Source: Pycnococcus provasolii (lineage: Eukaryota; Chlorophyta; Pseudoscourfieldiophyceae; Pseudoscourfieldiales; Pycnococcaceae). From it: a stretch of DNA of 64,000 nucleotides. The DNA is taken from the NCBI GenBank assembly GCA_938743325.2, contig OW568885.1, positions 124,001-188,000 of the forward strand. Direction: 5' to 3'. The stretch's first letter is position 1, and each line of letters opens with the position of its first letter. The notes beneath the pieces are model-generated. The model worked only from the letters and a program-made list of their open reading frames with translations, did not search any database and had not been told where the DNA came from. This document shows, piece by piece, positions 5,022 through 32,251 of the stretch. The position numbers and the translations under genes are program-made.

Positions 5022-6947
5022 TCACTTACTCCACATCTGGTACGCGGTGGGGTTGTCGCCCTGCAGACGCCCGTCCGTACCCGGACTCACGAAGTGGCCA
5101 ACTTGACGACGCTTACCCGTGCTCGGGTTGAAGACGGTTGTCCAACCGTCATAGCCGCCAGACACAACCAAGATGTTTTCAGGCGCGTACGCTCCCTCTG
5201 AAGCTGCCGCCATCAGCGCATCAGTCGTCACGTCGTCCACCTTTGCGACGATGACGTACGTCGCATCGCCAGCAGGAGGACACGCCGCGACGAATGATGC
5301 GGCAAAGTCGGAGGGATCGATCGCAACCTCGCGGCGGTCACGAAAGCTTGTCCCTTGCACTTCCAAGCTGGGCACATTCTTCGAACCTCGAATGCGCTCG
5401 TCGTCAAAGTTTTTTGCAGAGCGCAGATCGACGAGAACCGCAGCGCCGGAGTCGACCATCTCCTTCGCATCCTCCGCGCTGACGGATCGCCATGGTAAGG
5501 TAAGGTCATCTTCTGGTTGAGATGCTCCCTCCACTTCCGCCACGCGCTCGTCCGGTTGCGTCGACGGCGAATCAGCGTCATCCGAAGACACGACGTTGAC
5601 GCGTTCGAAAAAATCGCCTCCCATGGCGCTTTGCAGTGCATCGACAGCAGCCTTTCGCAACTCCTCAGAAGCTGCAGCTGCTGGTGGCGGTGGCGGTGGC
5701 GGCGGCGGTAAAGGTGAAGGTGAAGGTTCATCTCCATTGTCCCAATTGGCCAGGTACTCTCTCGACAGATTTTCGTTCAGAATGTTCTGTTGCTCGCGTG
5801 CCAAATCATCCATTGCCTCTGCGAGCGAAGCCATGTCCAGTTCATCGTCCACTTTGAAGTGCGCGCGGTGCTCAAGGATGCTCGCCGGACTTCGAAGCGT
5901 TCCCAGCCATTCCCTGAGAATGCCGTCCAATGCACGCGATCTCGCAGCCATGAAAAAATCAAGAGGCTGGTTTGGATGTCGCGATACGAGACGTGCAATG
6001 TCATCACGTGTGATGCGGCTTTTTTTGCCGCCGAGTGCTGGATACAGCATCTCCACAAGCTCGTCGTTCGTTGGTTCCCACAAAAACTTTTCCATCCTGC
6101 CGTCTCTCACGAGCGGCGCATACAGTGTGCTAAGGTCGTTCGCGGTGACAATGATTGGAACGCGAGGCAGGCGACCACCCGCCTTGACCTCGTCCCAACT
6201 CTGTCCCAGGCTAACGCACCCAGGGTCGTCACAAAGAGCCATGAGCGTTGCGGTTGCGTTTTGGTTGTTCACGGTGCCGTCTGTGAACTTGAGTCGTCCA
6301 AGTCCAGCATCTATGTCGTTGATCACGAGGCACGATGCAATACCTCTGTGCATGATGGACCGTGCGGCAGTGCGATAGCGGTTGCGTATTCGTTCTGCGG
6401 GGACCCCAGCAACGCCGTCCTCCATCTCGCCTGCAGACATGATAACAGGCTCGACACCCATGCGAGCGAGCGTGAGCTCGACATTGAGCGACTTGCCCAC
6501 TCCTTTGTGTCCCCAAATGCCGAGTACGAGCGGAACTCTATTCGTCGATGTCGACGACGACGCAAAGAAGTTGCGCGCCACGTGTATGGCAACAGCTTGC
6601 GCAAATCTCTCCGGCGGCAAGAGCCTCGACGAGTCAAGATGTTTGAGAGTCGATCGCGACGTCCACCTCAGTTCCCCCGTCACGAGGTCGCTGTCGACGC
6701 CCAGCGTATCTCCTGCGAAGAGCGCGTCAGCGACACCAGACTTCTGCGACTCCACGAACTGCGTGAGGTCGAGCGACGGATCGGGAAAACCTCCAGGTGA
6801 CACGTCGAAGTCACCACCACCAGACGCCCTAACCCTAACCCTCCTAGTCACCACCCTAGCCCAACGCACCCTAGGCACACGCAAACGCAGACCAGCACTG
6901 CGAGAGCTAACCAAACAAGCACTGCGAGAGCCAACCACGGGCGCCAT
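5022..6947 (-). CDS. Rubisco activase (AAA+) fused to a rhodanese-like domain, plastid
   Basis: A 641-residue single-exon protein. Residues 1-43 are rich in Arg, Val, Ser and Ala and look like a chloroplast transit peptide. The AAA+ Rubisco activase core follows: Walker A GHKGVGKS at 146-153, a Walker B-type VINDIDAG, then GTVNNQNATATLM and VPIIVTANDLSTLYAPL with RDGRMEKF-WEPT, all diagnostic of activases that remodel inhibited Rubisco. A Pro-rich linker leads to a C-terminal rhodanese fold (about 495-600). Its usual active-site Cys position reads VIVAKVDD, so sulfurtransferase activity is unlikely and a binding role more plausible. The AAA+/rhodanese fusion suits green algae. Part of the transit peptide is encoded by telomere-like DNA at 6828-6842. 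Confidence 0.85.
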   Translation of the reverse strand: MAPVVGSRSACLVSSRSAGLRLRVPRVRWARVVTRRVRVRASGGGDFDVSPGGFPDPSLDLTQFVESQKSGVADALFAGDTLGVDSDLVTGELRWTSRSTLKHLDSSRLLPPERFAQAVAIHVARNFFASSSTSTNRVPLVLGIWGHKGVGKSLNVELTLARMGVEPVIMSAGEMEDGVAGVPAERIRNRYRTAARSIMHRGIASCLVINDIDAGLGRLKFTDGTVNNQNATATLMALCDDPGCVSLGQSWDEVKAGGRLPRVPIIVTANDLSTLYAPLVRDGRMEKFLWEPTNDELVEMLYPALGGKKSRITRDDIARLVSRHPNQPLDFFMAARSRALDGILREWLGTLRSPASILEHRAHFKVDDELDMASLAEAMDDLAREQQNILNENLSREYLANWDNGDEPSPSPLPPPPPPPPPAAAASEELRKAAVDALQSAMGGDFFERVNVVSSDDADSPSTQPDERVAEVEGASQPEDDLTLPWRSVSAEDAKEMVDSGAAVLVDLRSAKNFDDERIRGSKNVPSLEVQGTSFRDRREVAIDPSDFAASFVAACPPAGDATYVIVAKVDDVTTDALMAAASEGAYAPENILVVSGGYDGWTTVFNPSTGKRRQVGHFVSPGTDGRLQGDNPTAYQMWSK

Positions 6948-7381: not shown

Positions 7382-9830
7382 TTTTTTTTTTTTTCCAGAC
7401 TATTGGGGTTACAAGAAGAAGTTCCTGTACCTAAACGAAGACAGAACAAGTATATGCAGTATGTGTACCATCAGACAAATCCACCCTACATACAAATAAC
7501 ACTCAAAACATCCCAATTCAAGCCCATGAAAGTTCCCCTGCTAGTTGAGCAAGCCTCCCACATCCCTGATTTACCATTTTCGCTCCCAGACTCTTCTCCA
7601 TGTGTTGGTTGACGTGTTAGGAGAGGATCTCTTCCTACGTGTGTTGAGTAGACTTAAGAGTCTTGTTGGGTTTCGTGTATTAGTGGCGGGGAGCAGTTCA
7701 TGATCTGATTGATTAGTTCTTCTTTGAACTTGAGTTGACTAGTACTCTCGCTGTGCTGTTGTCCATGAATAAGTGGAGGCATTTTTGGAAAATGGAGTTT
7801 GGAGGGACTCCCATGGATTGGAATATGTCTTTGACGTAGTTGTGATTGACTGAGTCGAATGCTTTGTGATAGTCCAGTAAGAGAGACATGCATGGATGGG
7901 TTTGTTCTTGGACTGTGTCGAGTGTGGTGAAGAAGTCGGCCAGTACGTCTATTGTGGATCTTTTTGGGAGGAATCCCCGTTGTTGGATGGAGAGGATGTC
8001 TTCGAGTACTGGTGTGAGGCGAAGGGATACTGCCTTGGAGTATATCTTGTATCCAGTGTTGAGAAGGGATATGGGTCTGTAGTTACTGAGTAATTCCGGG
8101 TCCCCTTTTTTGAAGATTGGGGCGATCATTGATGCAGCTTGATAAGGTTGGAGGATGGAGTTGTCGAGGCTGTCGTGGATTTCTTGTAGTAGGAGTGGGA
8201 TGAGGATGGATTGTATTTCGGGACATTTCCATGCTTCGGTTGGGATGCCGTCTGGGCCCGCGGCTTTACCGACAGGTAGCTTTTGAAGTGCGCCTTCAAA
8301 TTCTGTGAGCGTGAGTGGTGAGTTGAGTCTGGTTAGATGTTCGGGGGTGAGAGTGTCGCGCACGGAGCTGAGAAGGTGTTCTCGGAATGCTACTGTGTTG
8401 TCTTGCGAGGTAGGGAGAGTTTGGGAGAAGAGTTCATTGTAGAATTCGTGTGCGATTTGGCCTATTTCTGTTTTGAGTGTGATGCGGTCGGATTGTGCAT
8501 CGCGTTTGAGTGCGGGGATGGGGACGGCGTTCCTGGGTTTGATTACCGCCGTGAGTCGTTTGGACGCCTTGCGTTTGGCGACATCTGAGGTGAGTAGGCT
8601 TGCTGCCTTTTTGATAGTGTTGGTGCCGTCGATGGCTTGGTAGAGCTCTGCCAGGTGTTCTCTGGTGGAGGTGAGGTCGGATACGGATGTTTGGGCTTCA
8701 GCTTGTTGTGCAAGATTGTGTATGTATGCGTTGCGTTCGTTTTTCCGGTTTCTGCCAAATCGAGACGCTGTTTTGTGTATTTGTTGTAGGGCGTGTTGGA
8801 GTGTGTCGGGGGGTTTGTCTGTGAGAGAGTTTACGATGTTGAGGATTAAGTTCTTGTTGTTGAACCAAGAGGATGGGATTGCTCTTGGAGTGTCTTCTGG
8901 TATGGAGTTGTCAAGAGAACTGAATTGGGTGTATAGAATGTGGTGATCAAGTTCGCGTATTGGTTGGATGGTGGATTTGTTCAGATTGAGCGCGAGGCTG
9001 GTTGGGATGTATGTGTGGTCGATTCTGGAGCTGGATACGCCGTGCCCGTGTGGGTGGAAGCATGTGTATGCTGGAGTGTTCGGGTGTAGGTGGCGGTGTG
9101 CGTCGATGAGTTGCGATTGTTGTATAATTGGGAGGATGTGTTTCTTATAATGATCTTCTCTTTGTGGGGAGGAGTGTGTGATTGTGTCTGTCCATTTGTT
9201 ATGTGAGAGTGTGTCAAGTTCGACGTTGGCTACACAGTTAAAGTCACCTGTGAGGATGACTTGTCCATTGTGTGGCAGAAAAGAGGGTAGCATAGAGAGA
9301 AATTGGGCTCGAGGTTGGTCTTGTGCTGGTGCGTATATGGCTGTGATTTGTAGTGGAGTTTGAGAGGCTGTGGTGATGGTGACCGAGATAATTCTTCCTT
9401 GCTCGTGCTGGTGATGCTGGATCCTGTCGGGCGGTGGATATGATTTCTTGGCAGTGAGTATTGCCGCGCCTCCGACATTATTGTCTATGGTGGGCGACGA
9501 TTCAATGTGATATTTTCTGTGGATATGGGGAATGAAAAATTGTGCATTGGGTGTGTCATTGTTCTGGTGTGTGTCAGTGAGACATATGATGTCAGGGGGG
9601 GGGTGGAGGTTGATTGCTTCCAAAAAGTGGTATTGTTTACTCTCGTTTTTAAACCCTCCCGTGTTCCATGTCGCGACGATCATATCGTCTTCTCTTCAAA
9701 GTTGATGGTTTTGGGGTTCATGTCGTTGTCGTCCATTCCGTCGTCGTTGGGGCGGCGGCGGGCAGACTGCGCTGATCCTGTTGGGGTATGACCCATAGGC
9801 AGTCGCGCATCCGGCGAGCGTTTGTTAGGT
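7382..9830 (-). mobile_element. LINE (non-LTR retrotransposon), 5'-truncated and internally deleted
   Basis: Read on the minus strand, the element ends in a 13-base A tail (T run at 7382-7394) preceded by a 3' UTR (7395-7712). That UTR matches a second copy at 59398-59689. Upstream lies ORF2 (7713-9683) with an APE-type endonuclease and the first part of a reverse transcriptase. A short tail of an upstream frame ends at the ORF2 start with an ATGA stop/start overlap (9680-9683), as in two-ORF LINEs, and is probably the end of ORF1. The 5' limit is not visible; it falls between about 9780 and 9837, next to the JmjC gene. A-tail length and similarity suggest fairly recent activity of the family. 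Confidence 0.85.
7713..9683 (-). pseudogene. LINE ORF2 fragment: APE endonuclease plus partial reverse transcriptase
   Basis: 656 residues from an ATG. The N-terminal endonuclease looks intact: WNTGGF at the start, GRIISVTI, TGDFNC, the SSRIDHTYIP catalytic segment and a terminal LDHHILYTQF. The reverse transcriptase begins with GKAAGPDGIPTEAWK, APIFKKGDP, NYRPISLLNTGYKI, QRGFLPKRST and motif A LLLDYHKAFDSVNH. The frame stops about 40 residues after motif A, so motif B, the YADD box and the thumb are absent, and the sequence goes straight into the 3' UTR. A deletion inside the element explains this. The product would have endonuclease but no polymerase activity. Confidence 0.85.
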
Positions 9831-26276: not shown

Positions 26277-28295
26277 ATGACGTGTGGTGGGAGGTGTGCA
26301 TCAGGCTGGTGTGGATCTGGCTTTGCGTCGATCCTTCTAGTGGTGGTGCTGGTTAGCAGCACGAACCCGTCCTTCTTGTCGTCGTCAAGCAACTTCTTTG
26401 GTGTCTCAGCGGCCGTGTTGCCTTCGACTTTATCTGACGACACGGCCGTCGTCAGCTCGTACGAAGAACTCGCTGGCAACCTCACGTCGCCGACCGTGAA
26501 GAAAATATATGTCACGCAGGATATCGTATACCCCGCTGAGGCGACCGCCGATGGCCTGCTGCTCATGCGCGATATCACCGTCGTTGGCGCTTGCGAAACG
26601 TCCGCCGCCACGAGCCTTATGGGCAGTGGCTCCCCCAAAGGTCTGTGCATGTTGAACGCAAGCGCGCCGGTGGGAGGTGCCCGACGACACCTCGCCGTGA
26701 TTGCTGCAGACCAAAGCTCTCCTGGACCGTTCAAGGTTCACATGGAGGATCTCGCCTTCACCGGCGGTGCGCAGCCCGCGGCTGCTGGCGGCGTGATGTA
26801 TATCACGGGCAGCGATGGTACGGCGTCGTTCAAGACGTGCGGCTTTTTGAAAAACTCCGCCTCCAACGGCGGTGTCTTGTACTCGGACGCTGGCACGACC
26901 GTGCCTGTGTTTGAAAAGTGCCAGTTCCACCAAAACATGGCGACCGGGCTGGTCGCCAATGGTGCTGGTTGGGGTGGTGCGGCTATGTTCACCAATGGGC
27001 GTTCCGCCAAGTTCGTCGATTGCGGATTCGTCGGCAACGTTGCGAACGACCGCGCCGGCGCCGTGTACCAGTGGCAGGGGACTAACGTTGAATACCACGG
27101 CTGCGATTTCGATAAGAACAAGGCGGGCTCGGCAACCTCCACCTTGCCGCTCGGAGGTGCGGTTGTGGTGGACGGCGCAAATGCGACGTTCATGAATACT
27201 AACGTCGATGACAACACGCCCACCGGCATCCACTTGTACGGTGAGCCATCAAGTCCTGCGTTCGCGCATCTCGTGAAAACCAACGTTGATGAGAAAGATG
27301 ACGTCGCCATCATGACCGGCGTCGATTCGGCTGCACAGGAAGCAGTGAAGGGCAAGAAGCTGGTGCTGCTTAATGTTGCCACCTACAAGATCGAGGACAG
27401 CCAAACTGATGAGAAAGCGACTGGCGATGGCGAGAAGCAGATGATGATGTTCGGCACGGAGGAGGAGGCGAAGGCGGCCGCCGAGAAGATGGGATGCAGC
27501 GGCGCGCACAAAATGGGTGACAAGTGGATGGTGGGTGACACGCATGACGCCTGCACCAAGAGTCCCGAAGGTCCACAAATCGGAGAGCTGACTCCGATCG
27601 ACGCGTCGGTGACGCTGGCAGGCATGGCCAAGGACCAGTTTGACTCAGAGAAGTTCGCCATCGCGATGGCGAAGACGATGGATGTCAACCCGGAGGACAT
27701 TACGGATGTGAAGGTTGAGGAGATTGCCGCGACGTCGAAGCGCCGTTCCCTAACTACGATTGACCTTAAGGTTTCGTTCAAGGTGGCTGTGAAGGATACG
27801 ATGGAGGCGACAGAGGTTAGTGAGAGGTTGGCCAAGGCTGTGACGGATGGCTCGTTCGCGGAGAAACTTAAAAATGAGGGCATCACCGGTTTCACGGGCA
27901 TCAAGGCGCCCACGATTGCTATTCAGGACGCGCCCAAGGAGGGGGGTGACGGATGCGACGACTTGATGAACTGGGCCCCAGATTTCGACACCACGAAGTG
28001 TAATGCGGAATGTGCGACAACGCCGTGCACGGGTCTGGACCGCGTTGCGCAGTGCGGAGGCTGCAAGTCTGGTATGTGCTTCCCGTGCAGCAAGGAGCCC
28101 GGTGTGACGGCTACGACCACCACTACAACGATGGCAGCAACGACGACGACGACGACGACGGCTACGACCACCAAGGCTCCGGCCAAGACGGCTACGACCA
28201 CCAAGGCTCCGGCGACGACGACCAAATCGGGTGCCTTAACGCCTTCGGCGCTCGTTGGCGTTGCCGCGTTGGCGGTTGCCGCGCTGGCGGCTTAA
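26277..28295 (+). CDS. Secreted beta-helix surface protein with Thr-rich stalk and GPI-type tail
   Basis: 672 residues from the first ATG. A signal sequence (FASILLVVVLVSS) starts the protein. Residues about 60-330 carry parallel beta-helix/Pmp-like repeats (GGVMYITGSDGTASFKTCGF, GGAAMFTNGRSAKFVDCGF, GAVYQW, LGGAVVVDGANATF). These are related to the ectodomain of the receptor kinase at 29603. A mid-region (about 420-565: VTLAGMAKDQFDSEKFAIAM, EDITDVKVEEI, SLTTIDLKVSFKV) has the alternating pattern of a small alpha/beta module seen repeatedly in algal and protist surface proteins. A Cys-rich patch of eight Cys is followed by a mucin-like Thr/Ala stalk and a hydrophobic C-terminus without charged residues after it, as in GPI-anchored proteins. 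Its function is unknown. Confidence 0.75.
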   Translation: MTCGGRCASGWCGSGFASILLVVVLVSSTNPSFLSSSSNFFGVSAAVLPSTLSDDTAVVSSYEELAGNLTSPTVKKIYVTQDIVYPAEATADGLLLMRDITVVGACETSAATSLMGSGSPKGLCMLNASAPVGGARRHLAVIAADQSSPGPFKVHMEDLAFTGGAQPAAAGGVMYITGSDGTASFKTCGFLKNSASNGGVLYSDAGTTVPVFEKCQFHQNMATGLVANGAGWGGAAMFTNGRSAKFVDCGFVGNVANDRAGAVYQWQGTNVEYHGCDFDKNKAGSATSTLPLGGAVVVDGANATFMNTNVDDNTPTGIHLYGEPSSPAFAHLVKTNVDEKDDVAIMTGVDSAAQEAVKGKKLVLLNVATYKIEDSQTDEKATGDGEKQMMMFGTEEEAKAAAEKMGCSGAHKMGDKWMVGDTHDACTKSPEGPQIGELTPIDASVTLAGMAKDQFDSEKFAIAMAKTMDVNPEDITDVKVEEIAATSKRRSLTTIDLKVSFKVAVKDTMEATEVSERLAKAVTDGSFAEKLKNEGITGFTGIKAPTIAIQDAPKEGGDGCDDLMNWAPDFDTTKCNAECATTPCTGLDRVAQCGGCKSGMCFPCSKEPGVTATTTTTTMAATTTTTTTATTTKAPAKTATTTKAPATTTKSGALTPSALVGVAALAVAALAA

Positions 28296-28357
28296 AGGGG
28301 AGAGTGCATGGGAGGAAAGACGGGTTGGGATGTTTCTCTGTTGCTGGTTGACAAGCA

Positions 28358-28422
28358 CTATTATTTAGCGGATTTTGTTACTACTTCATCCAAAAAAACA
28401 AGCAATACGTTCAGAGGCAAAC
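28358..28422 (-). repeat. Right arm of a 65-bp inverted repeat
   Basis: It is the reverse complement of 25401-25466, lies 63 bases after the stop codon of the surface protein gene, and begins on the plus strand CTATTATTTAGCGG. A transcript of the surface gene reading into it would carry sequence antisense to the HSP90 3' end. Confidence 0.92.
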
Positions 28423-29602
28423 CTTGCGCTGACGACGATGGCGCCTACGTCGCCGGTGACATGAACGGGCAGAACGGCGAAGTGCCTTGGGTAATGAGGG
28501 AGGGTAGGTTCCACGACTGGTAGACCGGTCAAGGCTGGGAAAGAACGGGAGTTTGGTCGGTAACCTCGCGGGACACAACCCTTTTAAAAAAGATTTGCAC
28601 CCGTACATACTACACGGTAGTACCACACACTTACTATGAGTAGTCCTCGTCGTGGTCGGCCGACCATTCCTTGCGTTCACGAGGGTGGTATGGGACCCGC
28701 GAACTAAAATTAACCTTAGGCCCCCCATTAGGCTCAAAATGTACTACCAATTTGCGTGGGACCTCCCCAAGCTACGGATTAGCATGAGAGCCGTCTTGGG
28801 CTCCTCTCCCTAAGACCATACGGACTTGCTTGGGCCTTGGGAGTGGGGCCCCACCCGGAACGAACGAACGGCCTTGTACTGTCAACTGTATCGCATCTAT
28901 CGCATTGAACGTCTGCTTGCAACTGAGTTGCCAGAACAGCTTGCAAGAAACAGCCGATCCATGAGCACGGCAGCACGGTGGCGGCGCATTGGTCGAGCTA
29001 ACCTTATTGATTATTATTCCGGGATAATAATTGGGGACACGTCTCTTGTAATTAACCCTACGGCCCCTACCGACCCTGGTCCACAACTCCACATCCCGCG
29101 AAGGTTGGAAAGGACAGGCAACCTTCGAGGGTGTTCCCAAACAGCCAAAGGCCGATCTCGAGCACTTCCCGTAAACCCTAACAGCAAACTTTGTTGGAAC
29201 TTTGGCCAAAAACAACAGTCAACAACAACTCGAACGTCCAACGAAGTCACTTCAAGTCGGTAATTTTATTCCATATATTTTATTAACGCGGGCTTATTCC
29301 ACCGTACCGTATCTCTACCTTAAGTGGCCGCGTGCTCGGCGCTCTGCTCTCGGCGCTCTGCTCTCGGCGCTCTGCTTTGTGCTTCGTGCTGGCCGGCCTT
29401 GTTGTCTGCAGGCGGCGTTGACTGCAGGCTTGCCTCGAGGCCGTGTGGCCTTGTGGCTGTGGTCTGGCCGCGGCCAGTGCCTTGTTCAGCGACTTCGCCA
29501 GAGCCTTGTTGTTGACTTCGTTCATCATTCGTCAATATTGATTGCCACTCACTAACCTCATCTTCACAAATATCTTAACGATATACGGGGTGGTGACCGG
29601 TG
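28423..29602. other. Intergenic region before the receptor kinase
   Basis: No gene is seen. It contains an imperfect AT-rich palindrome around TTATTATTCCGGGATAATAA (29007-29032) and a triplicated 14-base unit (TCGGCGCTCTGCTC, 29337-29380). It is less GC-rich and less coding-like than the neighbouring genes. Confidence 0.45.
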
Positions 29603-32251
29603 ATGATGCTGCAACAATGGACTTGCACGAAGCGCGTTCGAAGCGAACCTACGCACACCTTCAGAAAAGACCGCGTGCCGTTTTCTAAACGTAAGCGACC
29701 GGCGTATCTTCAACGACAAGTGCGGCTGGCCACGCCGGGGTGGTCTCGAGGTTCTCTCTGGTTGGTGTCTCTGGTCATCGGTGGCCTCATTCTGTATTTT
29801 CAAACACGCACAGCTAACGCACAGACGAACCATACCAATACCACTCATGGTGTGGTGGTGGAGACGTACACGCAACTGAAAGCGCTCGTCGAAGACAAAG
29901 GCGGACCTGAAGTGATACGCGTCAACGCGTCTATAAGCTGGCCATACGACACAGAGACCACCACTGGTGACGGCACCATTGTCATCGCGCGCAGTGTCCA
30001 AGTTATCGGAATGTGCTCAAAGCAACGGTGTGTCTTCGATGCGAAAGAACAGTGCAGGCACTTCTATGTCGAGTCTGTCGTCAACATAACGTTCGCAAAC
30101 CTCGAGCTTATCAACGGCAACGCTTATCTGGCAAACGGTGGCGCAGTCCACTTCGCACAGTCCGCTAGAGGAAATGCGCTCATCGAAAACTGCGCGTTTG
30201 TGCGAAATATTGCCGGGCAAGGTGGAGCCATCTACTCAGCGAAAAACGACGTCGAGTTGACGTTCCGCGGGAGTGCGTTCGAAGCGAACCAAGCCAAGGC
30301 GGGTTCGGAGAATGCGGGTTCTGGATGGGGCGGTGCAGTCTTTCTGTGGTCTTCCTCCGCGACGTTCGACGACTGCGATTTCGTGCGCAACAAGGCCAGC
30401 TGGCGGTGCGGCGCGGTGTACGTCTGGTGCTCCGCCAAAGCCGTCTTCTACGAAACATCATTCACGGAAAACAGCGGCATGCAGTACGGAGGTGCGATCG
30501 TCGCCGACCACGGAATCATCGAATGCTACAACTGCACGTTTGCGGGGAACTCCGTGCTCCTGGGGGGCGGGATGGGAAGGAATTGCCACGCGTTCAGCGC
30601 ACAATCCGACCAACCGGCGAGGCTCCTGGCCGTTGGCAGTCCGACGGTCGATATAGCGCCTGGTGACGTGACGGTGCTTGGGCCGTATGCATTTGCTGAC
30701 GTCATCGACAAGCTGGTGCCTCCTCCACCTCCTCCGCCGCCCTCGCCTTCTACACCACCTCCACCTCCTCCGCGGCCGCCAGGCCGCGGAGGGTTAGAGC
30801 CAATGCCGCCAATGCCATCAATGCCATCAATACCATCCATCCTTCCGCCGACTCCTACACTGAGCAGGTCAGGTGGCGCCGATACGTACACAATCGTCGG
30901 CATATCTGTCGCAGGAATTATCTCAATTTCGTGCTTCGTTGGCACTGGCATATTGGCTATGCGAAGGCATTACTCCGTGAGTTCTGAGGAGAAGCAAGAT
31001 CGTGAGGAGGATAGACCGGCTAACATTTCAAGCCACTCCGTTGAGATGGTCGCCGATATGCAAGCACAACCCGACGTCGAAGAGGGCGATGTGGAAAAAG
31101 AAGCAAGCACCTCGTCGCTGGACACACGGATAACAAACGGCACGACCACGACAAGCTCAATGTCAAAATACTCCATCTTTGCGATTCGAGGCTCGCCAAC
31201 CTCCGAACTCGAAGTGAATCTCGGAGCCTGGGTAGCGGAGGAGGGTGCGGAAAAGGGACTTACCTTGCACGATTACGGCCTCGAGCGTATTGCCTCCGGA
31301 AGTTACGGAGCCGTTTTCCCTGTCATGTACTACGGACAGGGTTGCGCAATGAAGTGCATCGAGTACAACTCCTCCGATAGTGAGCCAGAAGCAGACACGC
31401 TCAACGGTGCATTCACAGAATCTCAGCATGCTCGTGCATCGGCAAAGAGCGAGATCATGATCGCGGACATGGCAGACCACCCGAATCTCGTGCGCACGTT
31501 CGCCACGTACATATATCGCATGCCGTCTGTAAGGCGCGATCACGCCGTTTTGGTGCAGGAGATGTGTGACGGGAAATCTGTTAAATCGCACATTCAAGAT
31601 GGGATCCTCTACCAAGACTGCTCGAGCAAAGTGCAAATCGAAATGCGGAAGATTGACGTATGCCGCCAGGTGCTGATGGGCTTGCAATTTTTGCACACCC
31701 ATGGCGTTATTCACAGCGACGTGAAAGCCAGCAACGTGTTTCTCAGGAGCGAGGTTCCCCTTGCATATCCGGGCTACAAATGGCGATACACGGCAAAGCT
31801 TGGAGATTTTGGTCACTCAATAATCCTTGAGAAGGGTGAGAGCATTGCGATTGCAAACAGGCTCGGTACGATCACACACACCGCCCCGGAGCTCGCCAGC
31901 GAAGGCACCGCGAGTGCGGCAAGCGACACGTTTGCGTACGGAAGATTCATCTGGGAGGTGCTCCAAGCGCGCGATGTATGGCACGGTGTTCCAGAAGCCA
32001 GCGCGCGAGAAAAAGCGCAAAGAGGCGAACCTCTGCGATTTGATGACGACGATGAGCACCCCTTTGTGCTGATTCGTCTGTGCCACGACTGCTGTTCGCG
32101 CGGTAAGGATGATCGACCGCACACAGCTGAGGGTTTTAATCGCATCAACGAAGCGTGGAAGGAGTTATTACGTCATGCCGAGGCGATCGATCATGCTCAA
32201 GGCCCACCGCAGGTCGGGCAAAAGCGCTTGCGCGTCGGATCCGAGGGCTGA
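29603..32251 (+). CDS. Receptor-like Ser/Thr kinase with beta-helix ectodomain
   Basis: 882 residues. A hydrophobic segment at about 52-70 (SLWLVSLVIGGLILYF) is a signal anchor. It is followed by an ectodomain of parallel beta-helix repeats rich in N-glycosylation sites (GNALIENCAFVRNIAGQGGA, GWGGAVFLWSSSATFDDC, CGAVYVWCSAKAVF, YGGAIVADHGIIECYNCTF). A Pro-rich spacer leads to a second span at about 430-450 (YTIVGISVAGIISISCFVG). The cytoplasmic part is a protein kinase: glycine loop IASGSYGAVF, Lys in CAMKCIEY (about 584), catalytic loop HSDVKASNVF (an HRD variant, HSD, with Asp kept), DFG in KLGDFGHS, and APE-like TAPELAS. It is probably active. The ectodomain is paralogous to the upstream surface protein, suggesting that they recognise the same kind of ligand or each other. 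Confidence 0.85.
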   Translation: MMLQQWTCTKRVRSEPTHTFRKDRVPFSKRKRPAYLQRQVRLATPGWSRGSLWLVSLVIGGLILYFQTRTANAQTNHTNTTHGVVVETYTQLKALVEDKGGPEVIRVNASISWPYDTETTTGDGTIVIARSVQVIGMCSKQRCVFDAKEQCRHFYVESVVNITFANLELINGNAYLANGGAVHFAQSARGNALIENCAFVRNIAGQGGAIYSAKNDVELTFRGSAFEANQAKAGSENAGSGWGGAVFLWSSSATFDDCDFVRNKASWRCGAVYVWCSAKAVFYETSFTENSGMQYGGAIVADHGIIECYNCTFAGNSVLLGGGMGRNCHAFSAQSDQPARLLAVGSPTVDIAPGDVTVLGPYAFADVIDKLVPPPPPPPPSPSTPPPPPPRPPGRGGLEPMPPMPSMPSIPSILPPTPTLSRSGGADTYTIVGISVAGIISISCFVGTGILAMRRHYSVSSEEKQDREEDRPANISSHSVEMVADMQAQPDVEEGDVEKEASTSSLDTRITNGTTTTSSMSKYSIFAIRGSPTSELEVNLGAWVAEEGAEKGLTLHDYGLERIASGSYGAVFPVMYYGQGCAMKCIEYNSSDSEPEADTLNGAFTESQHARASAKSEIMIADMADHPNLVRTFATYIYRMPSVRRDHAVLVQEMCDGKSVKSHIQDGILYQDCSSKVQIEMRKIDVCRQVLMGLQFLHTHGVIHSDVKASNVFLRSEVPLAYPGYKWRYTAKLGDFGHSIILEKGESIAIANRLGTITHTAPELASEGTASAASDTFAYGRFIWEVLQARDVWHGVPEASAREKAQRGEPLRFDDDDEHPFVLIRLCHDCCSRGKDDRPHTAEGFNRINEAWKELLRHAEAIDHAQGPPQVGQKRLRVGSEG

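Follow-up and report, generated by a model that had tools for sequence, protein, structure and literature searches.

A beta-helix receptor kinase and a neighboring GPI-type surface protein as probable forms of one modular receptor repertoire in Pycnococcus provasolii

Does a gene for a beta-helix receptor kinase that lies beside a gene for a related surface protein form a working pair with it, belong with it to a wider receptor family, or merely adjoin it? This question is raised by two genes of the chlorophyte Pycnococcus provasolii, here called KIN (the kinase) and P1 (a surface protein with a glycosylphosphatidylinositol (GPI)-type tail). Both occur within a stretch of 64,000 nucleotides, referred to below as the window, which is C25:124001-188000 of genome G000 (32,333,900 bases in 46 contigs, designated C and a number); genome-wide searches covered these contigs. 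The genome of P. provasolii CCAP 190/2 comprises 32.2 Mb in 44 chromosomes and two organelles (PMC11130579). The two open reading frames (ORFs) proposed by an initial annotation of the window are present at the coordinates it gave, both uninterrupted and both on the + strand:

26277..28295, + strand: P1, a single uninterrupted ORF of 672 amino acids, a surface protein with a GPI-type tail, identified from Pfam matches and the metagenomic relatives P0121 and P0122
29603..32251, + strand: KIN, a single uninterrupted ORF of 882 amino acids, a single-pass receptor kinase

We consider it rather probable that P1 and KIN belong to a single modular receptor repertoire, P1 as its GPI-type form, anchored at the surface, and KIN as its kinase form, which would signal. 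The initial description of one signaling and one non-signaling form agrees with the predicted architecture of the two proteins. The features of KIN are as follows:

29852..30637, + strand: Pmp-like beta-helix ectodomain, residues 84-345
30716..30800, + strand: Pro-rich extracellular hinge, from sequence
30902..30958, + strand: transmembrane (TM) helix, residues 434-452, from hydropathy
31283..32131, + strand: protein kinase domain, residues 561-843 (Pkinase E 7.1e-30; catalytic motifs; HSD replaces HRD)

The Pkinase match of KIN reached 104.7 bits (cut-off 31.7), and the catalytic motifs are retained as the G-loop, Lys584, HSD704 (HSD for HRD), DFG735 and APE761. KIN is a single-pass kinase with conserved catalytic residues, as first described, having one clear TM helix; an N-terminal hydrophobic stretch scores 1.58 against a threshold of 1.6. 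Because this stretch falls narrowly under the threshold and is preceded by 50 residues with 13 Lys/Arg, the signal peptide of KIN is uncertain. With an extracellular domain, a single TM helix and a cytoplasmic kinase that keeps its catalytic residues, KIN has the predicted architecture of a receptor-like kinase (RLK). The PDB sequences nearest to its kinase were mostly RAF and Eph kinases among the best 60 of 350.

P1 is divided as follows:

26277..26411, + strand: predicted signal peptide region, residues 1-45, with a hydrophobic stretch at 8-34 (hydropathy)
26412..27326, + strand: Pmp-like beta-helix ectodomain, residues 46-350 (Beta_helix above cut-off; homologous to the KIN ectodomain)
27450..27545, + strand: DUF3721, residues 392-423 (Pfam E 1.7e-13)
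27585..27944, + strand: SEA-like membrane-proximal module, residues 437-556, common to other genes
27738..27746, + strand: Lys-Arg-Arg, residues 488-490, a candidate proprotein-convertase site between predicted strands 2 and 3
27954..28097, + strand: Cys-rich module, residues 560-607 (DNA identity 88% to the C2:1149132 region and 86% to the C43:180567 region)
28098..28226, + strand: Thr/Lys-rich mucin-like stalk, residues 608-650, from sequence
28227..28295, + strand: C-terminal signal of GPI type, residues 651-672, with the stop codon; hydrophobic at 653-671

The mucin-like stalk and GPI-like tail of the initial annotation are thus both found, at residues 608-650 and 653-671. By hydropathy P1 has the sequence features of a GPI protein, namely an N-terminal signal, a hydrophobic tail following small residues, and no cytoplasmic tail, since its C-terminus is a 19-residue hydrophobic stretch followed by one residue. 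This tail has matches at three other loci (E<=0.001), and a gene for the GPI-transamidase subunit Gaa1 is present. We regard P1 as a putative GPI-anchored protein. DUF3721 (50.5 bits in P1, cut-off 27) recurs four times elsewhere in the genome at E<=1, and three of these matches exceed the cut-off. The SEA-like module lacks the GSVVV autoproteolysis motif and carries SKRRSL between predicted strands 2 and 3; its basic pair RR is retained in 18 of the 20 primary copies examined, P1 counted. The genome has one P_proprotein domain, a candidate for which furin identity is not implied. In this strain the module is probably nicked at the basic loop, which is conserved, and shedding of the ectodomain could follow.

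The ectodomains of P1 and KIN are homologous (BLASTP, 64/223 identical residues, 29%; E 3e-18), and the stretch GWGGA...GAVYxW is common to both. The Pmp-like GGA repeats first noted in the two proteins were recovered by Pfam, with the KIN ectodomain, queried alone, above the cut-off of Chlam_PMP (25 bits, cut-off 20.6), and P1 above that of Beta_helix (30.3 bits, cut-off 25.9) and under that of Chlam_PMP (14.3 bits). The matching cysteine spacing holds for four residues, P1 106/124/188/249 aligning with KIN 138/143/197/258; it fails for two cysteines of P1 (215 and 276) and six further ones of KIN, which have no counterpart. Neither predicted model had a Foldseek match at E<=0.001, that of the P1 beta-helix being of poor quality.

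The term tandem paralogues is justified as far as homology goes, although a tandem origin is not established. P1 and KIN were sisters with support of 67/71 in a tree of 6 rows, and this relation was absent from a tree of 21 rows, where it had a P value of 0.35 in the approximately unbiased test (p-AU). One tree paired the long P1 and C32 rows, a join flagged as doubtful by the tool. With an identity of 29%, and with sisterhood neither recovered nor rejected in the 21-row tree, a recent tandem duplication is not established.

The strongest competitor to a partnership is that P1 and KIN are neighbors only, brought together from a dispersed Pmp family by local duplication or chance, with P1 acting as an adhesin or wall protein and KIN as an independent receptor; the repertoire itself is undisputed in this account. 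We hold this to be a serious possibility, somewhat short of even. Each protein is the other's best Pmp match in the genome, by a narrow margin, and they are the sole ORFs of >=220 amino acids kept between ORFs for HSP90 and a Utp14-like protein, which together with the common GWGGA...GAVYxW stretch speaks against mere adjacency. The undecided trees speak for it, as does the local grouping of Pmp matches (C7, C8, C14, C15, C26, C38 and C40), which partly reflects repeated units inside one gene (C7 and C15) but at C26 involves two adjoining Pmp genes, each with a signal-peptide exon. Because of this local duplication, and because the trees lack a P1/KIN sisterhood, mere neighbors are about as likely as partners, and we rate the chance that P1 and KIN are partners at about one third. 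Four near-identical short GGA-repeat matches with Gly/Ala-rich neighbors also lie in a row at C27:466000-471000 (L042-L045).

The genome holds considerably more of this family. A search with the KIN ectodomain gave 27 matches at E<=0.01, KIN itself and P1 counted, and a Pkinase scan gave 130 matches (122 of 190 candidates scored). The Pkinase matches listed omit both KIN and the C31 kinase described below, so that the following five genes (L070-L074), in which a kinase lies 3-4 kb downstream of Pmp exons on the same strand, are a lower bound:

C44:234500-239900, Pmp exons at C44:234035: beta-helix, three TSP1 repeats, TM helix, MLKL_N and kinase
C15:495800-501000, Pmp exons at C15:495390: the same order with five TSP1 repeats
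C26:348600-353400, Pmp exons at C26:353296: the same order with two TSP1 repeats
C14:132700-138000, Pmp exons at C14:132308: the same order with six TSP1 repeats
C44:20500-25500, Pmp exons at C44:20042: the same order with one TSP1 repeat

At all five loci an open frame runs from the end of the beta-helix through the TSP1 repeats, a Pro-rich hinge, one TM helix (hydropathy) and MLKL_N to the kinase. In all five the upstream Pmp exon is followed by a GTACGT or GTACGC donor, and a CAG acceptor lies before the last exon; the middle exon was located at four (all but C15) with the pattern used, and the exon joints as drawn are phase 0. The Pmp exons thus appear to be spliced to those for TSP1, TM helix, MLKL_N and kinase. 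An uninterrupted, intronless frame on C8 keeps this order of coils, which supports the exon models. Pairwise identity among the five is 79.5-93.3% over the TM-MLKL_N part and 82.5-95.1% over the kinase, and 69.9-83.3% and 81.9-86.2% over the last and first beta-helix exons, respectively. MLKL_N (PF22215) exceeded its cut-off of 27 at each locus (30.1-38.3 bits), and when this domain was the sole query, MLKL accounted for seven of the nine PDB sequences matched at E<=10 (best E 5.3e-4, the other six 0.14-1.7). The kinase motifs VAVK, HGD and DFG are intact in all five. The gene at C44:234500-239900 also carries a P1-type SEA-like module in frame with its kinase. A sixth relative, for the kinase part only (48%), lies at C42:67896, and a fragment at C14:138664.

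The idea that the combination in KIN is unique in the genome was rejected on finding these kinases. It had seemed unique because exons of the multi-exon loci match only one at a time, and the kinases of these loci are missing from the KIN-query matches (51 of 128 candidates scored). At least five other loci thus carry the ectodomain family with a kinase, of another subfamily than KIN's, and kinase-less forms occur elsewhere. The kinase of KIN is 34% identical to a kinase on C31 and 27% identical to a C44 kinase:

C31:61506-63899, - strand: single-pass kinase (L002) with a different, Cys-containing ectodomain, closest to KIN among this genome's matches

KIN and the C31 kinase grouped with support of 99/98 in a tree of 16 rows and 100/99 in one of 14 rows (the 16 minus P0132 and P0134), and grouping KIN with the five kinases to the exclusion of C31 was rejected (p-AU 9.8e-7 and 5.3e-5, respectively). 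By sequence, one ectodomain family is thus joined to two kinase subfamilies. Uniting KIN, C31 and the five kinases in one clade was not rejected (p-AU 0.069 with 16 rows and 0.12 with 14), so we speak of two subfamilies and have dropped the notion of unrelated lineages. As regards plant RLK/Pelle kinases, KIN stood apart from four plant RLKs in the 16-row tree, where sampling was small and branches were long. As the KIN and C31 kinases group together and the C31 ectodomain is different, at least one exchange of the ectodomain has taken place, through two separate joinings of the beta-helix to kinases or through its loss from C31. At E<=0.001 no other copy of the C31 ectodomain turned up in the genome, so that no further kinase/GPI pair was found on it.

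Other loci bear the beta-helix without a kinase. At C34:426600-431200 (L076) a stop comes immediately after the beta-helix, hinge and TM helix of the kinase family, and beyond it the frame continues with the last 15 residues of the kinase form; by its sequence this is an internal deletion of the intracellular part, and the product may be a TM-only form or the locus a pseudogene. The locus at C7:424600-429000 (L075) has a TM helix and a SAM-type domain (35.6 bits, cut-off 25) after the beta-helix. At C8:136300-140800 (L077) and C40:225000-229000 (L078) it runs in a single frame into long arrays of similar repeats, which we take to be FG-GAP-like; these proteins are perhaps adhesins.

Metagenomic versions show where this architecture varies. 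KIN differs from its counterpart P0001 at 8 of 882 residues. P0121 is identical to P1 at 301 of 305 ectodomain residues, with a different module replacing the SEA-like and Cys-rich modules; modules of this type also occur at C2, C40, C22 and, twice, C34, and the P0121 tail is 93% identical to C26:567396 versus 79% to P1's own tail. P0122 (292 of 305) lacks the SEA-like and Cys-rich modules and runs directly into the Thr stalk. P0123, the one P1 match recorded under the name P. provasolii, is a relative of part of P1. The kinase search gave no match under that name, and a counterpart of the C31 kinase did not come up either, so that KIN may nevertheless be present in that assembly. Because the genome has a single ectodomain this similar, P1, P0121 and P0122 most likely represent one gene in different alleles or strains, the locus being deduced from the proteins. 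Judged from these comparisons, the membrane-proximal part of P1 is a swappable cassette. That it is exchanged or absent while KIN is nearly invariant is a further point in favor of two neighbors without partnership.

On our reading of one modular repertoire, the beta-helix of KIN, kept off the membrane by the Pro-rich hinge, would bind a ligand of a surface, the wall or a microbe, and this ligand is probably a glycan. Binding would bring KIN kinase domains together across the single TM helix, and the resulting kinase activation would be the signal. P1 would be the non-signaling form, presenting a related ectodomain on a mucin stalk and a GPI-type anchor, from which it would perhaps be shed through nicking of the SEA-like module at the basic loop. 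If P1 and KIN are partners, the likeliest route is that P1 captures or presents ligand to a kinase form, in the manner of GPI-anchored LysM proteins and LysM kinases in plants, and by this analogy a co-receptor role for P1 is plausible. The kinase form served need not be KIN, because one MLKL-type receptor shares both the beta-helix family and the SEA-like module of P1.

A bolder reading, which we think unlikely, is that shuffled beta-helix ectodomains form the basis of a system for telling self from non-self or for sensing microbes, in which membrane-spanning receptors would carry their own MLKL-type executioner together with an active kinase, and the RAF-like KIN form and the GPI-anchored, shed and kinase-deleted forms would act as modulators. 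If true, a single polypeptide would span the whole receptor-to-death pathway, in a lineage other than animals, fungi and land plants.

Of the receptor/decoy or co-receptor pair initially proposed, the co-receptor half stays plausible and the decoy half is weakened, because the ectodomains are only 29% identical. A decoy P1 would bind the ligand of KIN, be shed via its SEA-like module and dampen signaling, for which the conserved basic loop, the P_proprotein domain and the kinase-less deletion form on C34 provide some basis. A common ligand is doubtful at 29% identity, however, P0121 and P0122 lack the SEA-like module, and the C34 locus may just as well be a pseudogene; we consider this role improbable. 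More improbable still is that the ectodomains are polysaccharide-active enzymes or relics of the pectate/alginate lyase fold and not sensors.

Elsewhere in the window, a LINE-like ORF with endonuclease and reverse transcriptase occupies 7713-9683 (- strand), and a single ORF at 5022-6947 (- strand) encodes an AAA protein in which the Rubisco-activase helical domain occurs together with a rhodanese domain.

Most of what is known of receptor kinases with diverse ectodomains comes from land plants and animals. Plant LYK/CERK1 and LYM/CEBiP likewise present one ectodomain type in kinase and GPI-anchored forms, and PMC6207691 suggests that the LysM ectodomain was joined in independent events to a GPI site or to a kinase, either active or dead. 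The Pfam scan of P1 and KIN contained no LysM domain; their ectodomain is a Pmp-like beta-helix and their host a chlorophyte, and the likeness is one of working principle only. Plant RLK and receptor-like protein (RLP) evolution by kinase capture (PMC10834447) similarly has ectodomain-only, RLP-like and RLK-like forms side by side. The seven ectodomain families classed there cover almost up to 70% of surveyed RLKs and do not include a beta-helix, which could hide in the unclassed rest. According to PMC6954182, the SEA domains of human GPR126 and Notch-2 are furin-cut in a basic loop between strands 2 and 3. The P1 module resembles the SEA domains of Gpr126, Notch and mucins in the position of its basic loop and may share their ferredoxin-like fold; it differs in lacking GSVVV, in its GPI-type context and in being shuffled as a cassette, and it is a candidate for cleavage only.

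Chlamydia Pmp proteins have GGA(I/V) and FxxN repeats in a beta-helix passenger. P1 and KIN share these repeats, and the KIN ectodomain matches Chlam_PMP; by contrast, the two proteins are eukaryotic, have a GPI-type or TM anchor and end in a hydrophobic tail or a kinase, and no autotransporter beta-barrel appeared in the Pfam scans of P1, KIN or the five loci. MLKL is a pseudokinase without DFG. The five loci, but not KIN, resemble it in their predicted four-helix MLKL_N domain, and differ in that this domain is fused to a TM helix and ectodomain and the kinase keeps VAVK, HGD and DFG.

Our searches of open-licence papers listed no account of an algal beta-helix receptor kinase, in keeping with the initial remark that no described algal system of this make-up was known. 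Receptor-kinase and receptor-protein repertoires as such are known; new here are the beta-helix ectodomain, the two kinase subfamilies and the MLKL-type arm. A picoplanktonic chlorophyte thus has a shuffled receptor repertoire based upon one ectodomain family, with GPI-type, TM-only and SAM forms and with cassette exchange between strains. For a marine picoalga, this repertoire offers a testable way into cell recognition and perhaps also into regulated cell death.
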